Shown here: in pieces, positions 51,497 to 55,879 of the stretch
Numbering within the stretch: position 1 is the first letter of the stretch
Layout: every line of letters begins with the position of its first letter
Assembly (NCBI GenBank): GCA_031296105.1
Contig: JARLGJ010000020.1
Coordinates: 124,001 to 188,000, forward strand
DNA length: 64,000 bases
Origin: Acidobacteriota bacterium
Lineage (GTDB): Bacteria; Acidobacteriota; Terriglobia; Terriglobales; Acidobacteriaceae
Direction: 5' to 3'
Position numbers and translations under genes: made by a program
The notes under the pieces: model-generated
Told to the model about the DNA's origin: nothing
What the model saw: only the letters and a program-made list of their open reading frames with translations
The model's database searches: none

Positions 51497-51796
<300 letters not shown>

Positions 51797-51921: not shown

Positions 51922-52263
51922 TCACAGCACCACGATGGTGATGCCGCGATTGCCGCGGCCCATGTCGCTGTCCTGCTTCAGGCTTTTGTCGCGCTTCACC
52001 AGCTCCCAGGTGGTTTCGTTGGAGAGACGGAACTCCTCGCCCGGGATGAAGTCGGCGATCATGCCGTTTCGCTTGTAGCGGTCCAACACCTTCCACACCT
52101 CGGGCTTCATCCGTCCCCCTTCGCCGCTCGACCCATAGCCGTGGATCAGCTTCAACAAGCAGACACCTCTTGCGCGGGCGTCGGCCAGGGCACGCTCCAG
52201 TCGCAACAGCCCCTGGTTCACCGTCGGGCGGCCCTCCTCCAGGTTGATGAGCTTGCAGTCCAT
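51922..52263 (-). CDS. Smr-domain protein
   Basis: 113 residues formed by a stand-alone Smr (small MutS-related) domain. The family motif LLKLIHGYGSSGEGGRMKPEV (about 36-55) contains the conserved H-G-x-G that binds nucleic acid. The preceding LRLERALADARARGV is the first helix of the fold. Its partners (MutS2) are absent, so it may act as a nicking endonuclease or ribosome-rescue nuclease like SmrB. There is no signal or membrane segment. The N-terminal MDCKLINLEEGRPTV matches the usual start. Confidence 0.85.
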   Translation of the reverse strand: MDCKLINLEEGRPTVNQGLLRLERALADARARGVCLLKLIHGYGSSGEGGRMKPEVWKVLDRYKRNGMIADFIPGEEFRLSNETTWELVKRDKSLKQDSDMGRGNRGITIVVL

Positions 52264-52486: not shown

Positions 52487-52507
52487 CTTGACAATAATAG
52501 ACTCATA
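52487..52507. promoter_or_regulatory. HAIR-like inverted repeat (possible HspR operator)
   Basis: CTTGACA-N7-ACTCATA matches the HAIR consensus CTTGAGT-N7-ACTCAAG at 10 of 14 arm positions with the exact 7-base spacing. It overlaps the -35 box of the hsp20 promoter, where an HspR repressor would act. No hspR gene is in the window. Confidence 0.5.
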
Positions 52508-52516
52508 TTTTATGCT
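52488..52516 (+). promoter_or_regulatory. Sigma-70-type promoter upstream of hsp20
   Basis: Perfect -35 TTGACA (52488-52493), 17-base spacer, and TATGCT (52511-52516) as -10. It lies about 105 bases before the hsp20 start, giving a ~100-base 5' leader. Confidence 0.75.
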
Positions 52517-52597: not shown

Positions 52598-52611
52598 TTC
52601 CTAGGTAGGAG
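52598..52611 (+). promoter_or_regulatory. Small hairpin masking the hsp20 ribosome-binding site
   Basis: TTCCT pairs with AGGAG across a 4-base loop, so the ribosome-binding AGGAGG is partly base-paired. Together with the ~100-base leader it could act as an RNA thermometer. Confidence 0.35.
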
Positions 52612-52620
52612 GATAAGACC

Positions 52621-53103
52621 ATGACCGTATTAACCCGTTGGGAACCCGTTCGCGAGCTGGCAGCTCTGCAGGACCGCTTCAATCGTCTGTTCAATGAACC
52701 TTATGGCGGAGTGACCGCGCAGGAATCCCTGTCGGCTGGCTCCTTCGTTCCGCCGGTGGACGTCTATGAAGACGAGTCCGGCATCCAGTTGAAGATGGAA
52801 GTTCCAGGCATCGACGAGAAGGACATCGACATTCGCCTGGAGAACAACCTGCTCACCGTGAAGGGCGAGCGCAAGCTGGCGAAGGAGACCAAGGAAGAGA
52901 ACTATCACCGCATCGAGCGCAGCTACGGCTCGTTTACCCGCAGCTTTAGCCTGCCCAACACGGTGAACACCGAGGACGTGAAGGCCAGCTACGCCAGGGG
53001 CGTGTTGACCATCGGCCTGGGCAAGCGCGCCGAAGCCAAGCCGAAGCAGATCAAGGTGAATGTTACTTCGGAAAGCGCTGCGCCGGAGTTGGCAGCCAAG
53101 TAA
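52621..53103 (+). CDS. Hsp20/alpha-crystallin small heat-shock protein
   Basis: 160 residues with the alpha-crystallin domain in the middle: PPVDVYEDESGIQLKMEVPG, then IDIRLENNLLTVKGERK, and RSYGSFTRSFSLPNTVN, all canonical beta strands. The N-terminal REPVRELAALQDRFNRLFNE motif is common in bacterial class A proteins. A conserved GVLTIGLGK and the C-terminal extension close it. As a holdase it binds unfolding proteins and passes them to ClpB/DnaK; the next gene is clpB. Start ATG 52621 has AGGAGG upstream. A promoter with an HspR-type inverted repeat precedes it. Confidence 0.96.
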   Translation: MTVLTRWEPVRELAALQDRFNRLFNEPYGGVTAQESLSAGSFVPPVDVYEDESGIQLKMEVPGIDEKDIDIRLENNLLTVKGERKLAKETKEENYHRIERSYGSFTRSFSLPNTVNTEDVKASYARGVLTIGLGKRAEAKPKQIKVNVTSESAAPELAAK

Positions 53104-53152: not shown

Positions 53153-53195
53153 CGGGGGAGCGCGGAGATTCCATGAGCGAATCCCGGCTCCCCCG
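53153..53195 (+). other. Strong bulged hairpin between hsp20 and clpB
   Basis: Stem CGGGGGAGC-CGG-GATTC / GAATC-CCG-GCTCCCCCG, 17 pairs with two single-base bulges and a 7-base loop. No U-run follows, so it is more likely an mRNA processing or stabilising element than a terminator. Confidence 0.6.
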
Positions 53196-53254: not shown

Positions 53255-55879
53255 ATGGCAATCCGTTGGGACCGGCTCACCGTAAAGGCGCAGGAGGCAA
53301 TGCAGCGCGCGGCGGAGTTCGCCAATGAAAACGCGAATTCCGAAGTAATGCCGCTGCACGTGCTGGCCGCCCTTTTGGAAGATCGCGAGGGCATTGTGCC
53401 GCCGCTGCTGGCCAAGGCTGGCGTGCAGGCCGCGGCCCTTCAGGCGCAGTTGCAGCGCGAGATTGCCAATCTGGCCAAGCTGGGCACTCCGGCGGCGCAG
53501 CCGCATCTGGGCGACGCCACCACCGAGATGCTCGACCTGGCCTTTAAAGCGGCCGAGAACTTCAAGGATGAGTACGTCTCCACCGAGCATCTGTTGCTGG
53601 GGCTGATCAAGATCAAGCGCGACGCGGCACAGAAGCTGCTCGTGGCGATGGGTGTGTCGGAAGACGCGCTGCTGAAGGCTCTCGCCGCCGTGCGTGGCAA
53701 TCAGACGGTGACCGACCAGAATCCCGAGTCGAAGTATCAAGCCCTGGAGCGCTATGCGCGCGACCTGACAGAGCTGGCCCGCCGCGGCAAGCTCGATCCA
53801 GTGATCGGCCGTGACGAAGAGATCCGCCGCACCATTCAGGTGCTCTCGCGCCGCACCAAGAATAATCCCGTGCTGATCGGCGAACCCGGTGTGGGCAAAA
53901 CGGCCATCGTGGAAGGTCTGGCGCAGCGCATTGTGCTGGGCGACGTGCCCGAGCAGTTGAAGAACAAGCGCGTCGTGGCCCTGGACCTTGGCGCCATGGT
54001 GGCCGGAGCAAAATATCGCGGTGAGTTCGAGGATCGACTGAAGGCCGTGCTCAAGGACATTGAAGAGAGTGACGGCACCGTCATCCTGTTCATTGACGAG
54101 TTGCATACACTGGTCGGCGCCGGAGCGGCCGAAGGTTCCATGGATGCCAGCAACATGCTAAAGCCCGCGCTGGCCCGCGGCGATCTGCGCGCCATTGGCG
54201 CCACCACGTTGAACGAGTACCGCAAGTACATTGAAAAGGATGCCGCGTTGGAGCGCCGCTTCCAGATCGTCTTTGTCGGCGAGCCCACGGTGGAGGACAC
54301 CATCTCCATTCTGCGCGGCCTCAAGGAGAAGTACGAGGTGCATCACGGCGTGCGCATCAAGGACTCGGCAATTGTCTCGGCCGCCGTGCTGTCGCACCGC
54401 TACATCAGCGACCGCTTCCTGCCGGATAAAGCAATCGATCTGGTGGACGAAGCCGCGGCCTCTCTGCGTATCCAGATCGACTCCATGCCAACGGAGATCG
54501 ACCAGTTGCAGCGCCGTGCCACCAGCCTGGAAATCGAACGCCAGGCGTTGAAGAAGGAGACGGATGCGAACTCCCGCGACCGCCTTGCGGTGGTGGAGCG
54601 CGAACTGGCCGAGGTGCGCGAGCAGGTCAATACGCTCAAGGCGCGCTGGCGTTCGGAGAAAGATGCCATCGGCGAAGTGCGCAAGCTGAAGGAATCCATT
54701 GAGCAGTTGAAGGCGCGGCAGCAGGAGGCCGCGCGCAGGGGCGAATACGAACGTGCCTCTCGCCTTCAGTATGACGAGTTGCCGAAGGCCGAGCAACGTA
54801 TGGCCGAACTGACGGCCAAGGCCGAAGGCGACAAGCGGATGCTGAAGGAGGAAGTAGACGAAGAGGACGTGGCCAGCATCGTCAGCCGCTGGACCGGCAT
54901 TCCCGTGTCGAAGATGCTGGAAGGCGAAGTGAAGAAGCTGGTGCACATGGAAGAGCGTCTCGGCCAGCGCGTCATCGGCCAGGACGAGGCTTTGGAGAGG
55001 GTCTCCAACGCCATCCGCCGCTCGCGTGCCGGACTCAGCGACCCGCGCCGTCCCATTGGTTCGTTCATCTTCCTGGGTCCAACGGGCGTGGGTAAAACAG
55101 AATTGGCCCGCGCCCTGGCTGAGTTTCTCTTCGACGACGAGCACGCCATGATTCGCATCGACATGAGTGAATATATGGAAAAGCACTCCGTGTCGCGGCT
55201 CATCGGCGCGCCTCCGGGCTATGTTGGCTATGAAGAGGGCGGGCAGCTTACGGAAGCCGTGCGCCGCCGTCCCTACTCGGTGGTCTTGTTCGATGAAATT
55301 GAAAAGGCCAGTCCCGAGGTCTTCAACGTCTTCCTGCAAATCATGGACGACGGCCGCTTGACCGACGGCAAGGGCCGGGTGGTGGACTTCAAGAACACTA
55401 TCCTCATCATGACCTCGAACATCGGTTCGTTGTCCTTGACGGGCGACATGAGTACGCCGGAGCGTTTTGCGCGCGCCAGCGAGCAGGTGATGACCGCCTT
55501 GCGGGCGCACTTCAAGCCGGAGTTCCTGAACCGCGTGGATGACATCGTGGTCTTCCATCCGCTCGGTAGCGAGCAGTTGACGCGCATCGTCGATCTGCGG
55601 CTGGAAGATTTGAAGCAGTTGCTGACCGACCGCAAGATCACCCTCGAGTTGACCGCCGCGGCCAAGAAGCAGTTGTTCACCAGCGGCTACGATCCCGCCT
55701 ACGGCGCACGTCCGTTGAAGCGTGCCATCCAGCGCATGGTGCAGGATCCTCTGGCGATGAAGATCCTAGACAGCGAAGTGCTGCACGGCGATCATGTGCT
55801 GGTGGATGCGGGCGAAGGTGCGCTGACCTTTACGGTGCAGCACCAGCAGGCCGAGCAGCACGAAGCGCAGCCCGCGTAA
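53255..55879 (+). CDS. clpB: ATP-dependent chaperone ClpB
   Basis: 874 residues of typical ClpB layout. The N-terminal domain (~1-145) has [17 protein letters not shown] and a second repeat. The first AAA+ domain has Walker A GEPGVGKT near 209-216 and Walker [12 protein letters not shown] coiled-coil middle domain with [37 protein letters not shown], and a second AAA+ domain with GPTGVGKT near 608-615 follow. It disaggregates proteins with DnaK and small heat-shock proteins. The ATG 53255 has GGAGGCAAAAGTT upstream. It follows hsp20 on the same strand after 151 bases, suggesting a common heat-shock unit. Confidence 0.98.

Follow-up and report, generated by a model that had tools for sequence, protein, structure and literature searches.

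A putative HspR operator fused to the -35 box of the hsp20 promoter in Terriglobia

The locus raises the question whether the imperfect inverted repeat upstream of a small heat-shock gene serves as the operator of a heat-shock repressor of the MerR family, HspR, and, if so, how far this control reaches downstream. The window, by which we mean the whole stretch of 64,000 nucleotides analyzed here, carries the repeat within the hsp20 promoter, which is located in a 357-nt gap 5' of hsp20. The features of the region are the following:

52487-52507, forward strand: HAIR-like putative HspR operator CTTGACA-N7-ACTCATA (left half 52487-52493, right half 52501-52507)
52488-52493, forward strand: -35 box TTGACA, within the left half-site of the operator
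52511-52516, forward strand: -10 box TATGCT, 17-base spacer from the -35 box; transcription start predicted at about 52523
52607-52612, forward strand: ribosome binding site AGGAGG of hsp20
52621-53103, forward strand: hsp20, small heat-shock protein of 160 aa (Pfam PF00011, E 2.3e-25)
53154-53194, forward strand: G+C-rich hairpin between hsp20 and clpB, here without a U tract
53255-55879, forward strand: clpB, disaggregase of 874 aa (TIGR03346, 1371 bits; cut-off 1232)

The initial annotation had described a repeat that overlaps a perfect TTGACA with 17 bases to TATGCT, and both position and sequence were found to be correct. Two promoter-like sites, one of them the hsp20 promoter, were detected in 5.1 kb, compared to 0.6 expected. 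Upstream of the promoter, a gene for an HU-like DNA-binding protein (51497-51796, forward strand) and a small Smr-like frame (51922-52263, reverse strand) were recognized, both by reading only.

The same annotation had counted 10 of 14 positions in agreement with the HAIR sequence CTTGAGT-N7-ACTCAAG. The count is right; taken alone, it is not above chance level. Within the window six places reach 10 of 14, whereas 60 dinucleotide shuffles gave 15.6 such places on average (sd 4.2), and the 357-nt upstream region reached this score in 166 of 2000 shuffles. A strict search of the whole window for HAIR with at most three mismatches gave no match, and a scan at 11 of 14 or better across 65 loci (MerR, hsp20 and hspR) returned one place each in loci L020 and L087, neither of them at a relevant promoter. 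These failed scans suggested a refutation, which was dropped once the dnaK promoters revealed the form of the site used in this lineage, TTGACA-N7-RCTMAK. The window contains this form a single time, and 100 shuffles never produced it; since it had been derived from relatives before the window was run, the window test is not independent, and the placement of the motif across the genome is the better test. The site exceeds chance because it is conserved in relatives, not because of its HAIR score.

Across the 3.45 Mb genome, TTGACA-N7-RCTMAK has four matches, one each at hsp20 and dnaK and two within open reading frames, while the reversed pattern has none; hsp20 and dnaK are thus the only matches outside open reading frames. 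A search for the same motif at dnaK had been suggested, and it was indeed located there (C74:11066-11084), where the promoter reads GTTGACAATAAGTCACTCAGG followed by TATTCT at 17 bases. The dnaK promoters of relatives show the same arrangement, and CTTGACA-N7-ACTCAAG, which matches HAIR at 12 of 14 positions, was found in 9 of 30. Among 61 genomes, the exact sequence YTTGACA-N7-RCTCAAG occurs at 16 sites, 13 of which lie 79-176 nt before the dnaK codons for GIDLGTTN; the reversed pattern gave four matches. The three exact strong sites away from dnaK do not outnumber these four reversed matches, and no further members of the regulon are claimed. In nine of ten genomes of order f2, two full sites are arranged in tandem at dnaK, 26 bases apart.

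A repressor that could act at both promoters is encoded in the same genome. The presence of a MerR-type hspR gene, which had been named as a check, was established at C60:191-622, with 105.3 bits on model NF047375, just above the curated cut-off of 105 (by 0.3 bits). The genome contains five genes with a MerR domain, and the four besides hspR score 31 to 41 on the HspR model. A search of solved structures with HspR matched other MerR proteins only. Contig C60 begins within dnaJ, with hspR next, and contig C74 contains dnaK and breaks off within dnaJ; because the two contig ends share an exact overlap of 84 bases in dnaJ, dnaK, dnaJ and hspR almost certainly form one locus in this genome. In a congener (G003) the three genes are contiguous. 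No HAIR site of 11 of 14 or better was found at the dnaJ-hspR loci. HspR orthologs at E 1.3e-37 or better were detected in 58 of 61 genomes, and HspR at E below 1e-25 in 195 of 200 genomes of the class that are at least 90% complete, the own genome included in both sets.

For the conservation of the hsp20 promoter, 30 loci from the own genome and its relatives, all of the class Terriglobia (Acidobacteriota), were combined with 80 loci from named contigs. As some genomes occur in both sets, the resulting 110 loci correspond to 99 distinct cores, of which 93 were profiled and 98 used for offsets. With the promoters anchored by the -35 and -10 boxes only, the start of RCTMA lies exactly 13 bases downstream of that of the -35 box in 85 of the 98, the promoter of the window included, compared to 4 of 98 for the next most frequent spacer offset. 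The TTGACA is exact in 79 of these 85 promoters and imperfect in six. The right half itself varies, with ACTCATA, ACTCAAG, ACTCAAC, ACTAAGA and ACTCACA among the variants. The 13 misses include four promoters with a changed -35 (G005, G011, G019 and G036), which have lost TTGACA and retained an RCTMA-like half, G029, the f10 genome G058 and the hsp20 copies L109, L114, L124 and L125. Two others (L027 and L148) were mis-anchored by the -35/-10 rule and show RCTMA by eye, with the count kept at 85, and L129 has just 101 nt of upstream sequence. No clpB lies within 900 nt of copies L109, L124 and L125, and L114 is too short to tell. Copies L109, L112, L114, L124 and L125 were seen by eye to share a different promoter, in which TTGACA is followed by GCCTA about 20 bases on and the HspR half-site is missing.

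Part of this pattern would also be expected of a strong housekeeping promoter without any repressor, the spacer being conserved for the polymerase. TTGACA and TATGCT at 17 bases are near consensus, the left half-site is indistinguishable from a -35 box, and the T run and the -10 box are as conserved as the half-site. However, the C, T and A of RCTMA lie in the spacer and are conserved at 94, 94 and 92% in the 93 profiled promoters, and RCTMA recurs at the same offset at another gene, dnaK, which together with hsp20 provides the only two non-ORF matches of the genome. We regard a bare promoter as improbable, also in view of the dnaK promoters of genomes without HspR described below.

A second RCTMA was noted at offset 37, i.e., 24 bases after the first and downstream of the -10 box, in 52 of the 98 hsp20 promoters. 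A second HspR site at this offset was dropped for the window, which reads ATTGA at the corresponding position (52525).

The hsp20 promoters also share a longer block, CATATTTTATG, which exceeds what HspR needs. This may point to a different regulator acting on an hsp20-specific element, the likeness to HAIR being incidental. At hsp20, conservation of the block extends past the half-site, and the block persists where TTGACA is lost, as well as in G011, a genome in which hspR was not detected. The sequence RCTCATATTTTATGMWTC, with at most one mismatch, was found in 23 of 61 genomes, once in each and never farther than about 310 nt from an hsp20 match, and the reversed pattern is absent. Such a regulator would explain neither the site shared with dnaK nor why that site co-occurs with HspR, and as the sole explanation it appears very unlikely to us. 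It is possible that both are true, with HspR and a further regulator on the CATATTTTATG block.

The assignment to HspR is supported by the distribution of the dnaK site among genomes. HspR was not found in five of the 200 class genomes, namely G011, G104 and the three sampled f10 genomes. Among 52 dnaK promoters, the site was recovered in 46 of the 47 from genomes that encode HspR and in one of the five from genomes lacking it (Fisher p 9e-5), a comparison that is not phylogenetically independent, as three of the five HspR-free genomes represent one family, and that used a looser -35 pattern (.TGA[CT][AG]) than the reading of dnaK locus by locus. The 52 scored loci exclude two shortened dnaK genes (L245 and L246) and the second dnaK copies in HspR-free genomes (L247-L250), which are without the site. 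In four of the five HspR-free genomes the half-site is absent from the dnaK promoter although TTGACA persists, which is at odds with a spacer kept for the polymerase: the f10 promoters have kept the CTTGACA box and lost the right half, and in G104 the half-site reads ATTCA, one base off. Two genomes deviate from the pattern. In G011 no hspR was detected, yet the site at dnaK and the right half-site at hsp20 are retained; on the far side of dnaK neither dnaJ nor hspR was found within 6.4 kb, and the gene may be missing due to loss, rearrangement or an assembly gap. In G016 HspR is present and no site was found at dnaK. As a correlation across 52 genomes, the co-occurrence of motif and HspR supports the putative assignment.

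The sequence CTTGA is also common to -35 elements recognized by sigma32, and an RpoH-type promoter was considered together with control by HrcA through CIRCE. The best sigma32-like match of the region, at 10 of 14, falls on the site, and RpoH-like sigma factors occur elsewhere in the class. However, this genome, which is 99% complete, encodes no RpoH-like sigma factor at E 1e-55, and the sole match at E 1e-30 is a frame of 568 aa with 140 bits that was read as RpoD. CIRCE has the sequence TTAGCACTC-N9-GAGTGCTAA; its best match upstream of hsp20 reaches 10 of 18 positions and was equalled by 425 of 500 shuffles. For the window, we consider either of these controls scarcely credible. For an RNA thermometer in the 5' leader, the known Rfam families were searched between 52300 and 53300 without a match at E of 1 or below.

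Two sister families of the class, f9 and f10, carry an RpoH-like sigma factor, and in f10 no HspR was detected. These sigma factors score 238-254 bits, short of the proteobacterial cut-off (323), and were detected in 11 of 200 class genomes, which are the three f10 genomes and eight of ten f9 genomes (among them loci L251, L252 and L254 in f10; L253, L255 and L256 in f9). Of the f9 frames extracted for reading, that of L253 is not the sigma gene and that of L256 is incomplete. They occur in four of the five HspR-free genomes compared to seven of the 195 with HspR. The f10 proteins carry the sequence RRKLFFNL, which we take to resemble the RpoH box. By eye, an AT[CT]TTA block, in many cases preceded by CC, takes the position of the HspR half after CTTGACA in all three main dnaK promoters and in 5 of 11 hsp20 promoters of f10, with L267 left out due to a start misplaced at a contig edge. 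Two f9 genomes (G065 and G071) encode both HspR and an RpoH-like sigma factor and have an HspR site at dnaK; at their five hsp20 genes no HspR site was found.

This distribution, in few genomes, suggests a stepwise exchange of the repressor for a sigma factor. More broadly, the chaperone genes may have moved between two unrelated heat-shock controls within the class while one CTTGACA box was kept. In most of the families sampled this box would serve both as the -35 and as the left half of an HspR operator; f9 and f10 would have gained an RpoH-like sigma factor, with the right half at hsp20 turning into an ATCTTA-type block, and f10 as well as G104 would then have lost HspR, followed by decay of the dnaK half-site. 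We put this forward tentatively and give it slightly less than an even chance. If it is true, CTTGACA is a hinge for HspR, the housekeeping sigma factor and an RpoH-type sigma factor, which would make a stepwise switch possible, and f9 is a living intermediate with an HspR site at dnaK and a sigma-type promoter at hsp20. The two sister families provide a natural series in which a possible replacement of repression by sigma-factor control can be followed. In a literature search of partial coverage, no study of RpoH or a sigma factor in Acidobacteria, or of the evolution of HspR and RpoH in this group, was found.

The initial annotation had extended HspR repression from hsp20 to clpB. The hsp20 part is supported by the hspR gene, the conserved site and the match at dnaK, while the clpB part is only partly supported in view of the terminator-like hairpin in most relatives. 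In 92 of 110 loci hsp20 and clpB are neighbors, and in 69 of these 92 the gap contains a terminator-like hairpin that has a U tract. With duplicates removed, 64 of 83 distinct gaps contain such a hairpin, whereas shuffled gaps gave 5, 7 and 10 of 83. The scan for promoter-like sites detected none in the hsp20-clpB gap of the window, and read-through is the likeliest route by which clpB could share the control of hsp20; in many relatives it is probably reduced.

The evidence comprises the site itself and its conservation, an hspR gene in the genome, and a matching site at dnaK that co-occurs with HspR. On this basis we consider it highly probable that 52487-52507 is the operator of HspR, controlling hsp20. 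The role of HspR as a repressor has been shown in other organisms, as described in excerpts of PMC2687793 and PMC6102357. In the mechanism that we infer, an HspR dimer would bind CTTGACA-N7-ACTCATA at normal temperature and block the housekeeping RNA polymerase from the hsp20 promoter; the polymerase would be excluded because the left half is the -35 box and the right half lies in the spacer. Heat or unfolded protein would free HspR from the operator, and Hsp20, with some ClpB by read-through, would then be made together with DnaK, DnaJ and HspR, whose promoter carries the same site. The particular feature is the fusion of half-site and -35 box: with CA as its inner bases, the left half reads as a perfect -35, which makes the operator asymmetric.

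A known control system is very likely extended here to a little-studied bacterial group, and no new system is proposed. Our literature search, which was of partial coverage, found no study of HspR or HAIR in Acidobacteria. For the Terriglobia, which are common and largely uncultured soil bacteria, the result is a concrete and testable heat-shock circuit, in which HspR is predicted to act on hsp20(-clpB) and on dnaK-dnaJ-hspR via an operator fused to the -35 box.

Among the closest parallels are the HspR-HAIR systems of Streptomyces coelicolor and S. albus (dnaK operon, clpB, lon), which, according to the parts of the literature covered, agree in the repressor family, the spacing of the half-sites and a dnaK operon with hspR as target. 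The consensus sequences given in an excerpt of PMC2687793 are TTGAGY-N7-ACTCAA and TKGARTNNNYNNRAYTCA; the site fits 10 of the 13 fixed positions of the S. coelicolor consensus printed there, and two of the three misses are the CA bases. Unlike in Streptomyces, these inner bases of the left half form a perfect -35 here, and hsp20, followed by clpB, is the second target. The same excerpt reports control of hsp70, clpB and a small heat-shock gene (acr2; hsp20) by HspR in Mycobacterium tuberculosis and Deinococcus radiodurans (PMC2687793); the targets of these regulons are alike, whereas the phyla are others and binding and regulation are predicted in our case. In promoter architecture, the site resembles that of HspR at Pcbp of Helicobacter pylori, an imperfect HAIR-like repeat with weakly conserved arms that overlaps the promoter, as described in part of PMC6102357. 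The H. pylori system differs in that, according to the same part of that source, HspR covers about 70-80 bp and, at other heat-shock operons, is bound far upstream and acts with HrcA (PMC6102357).
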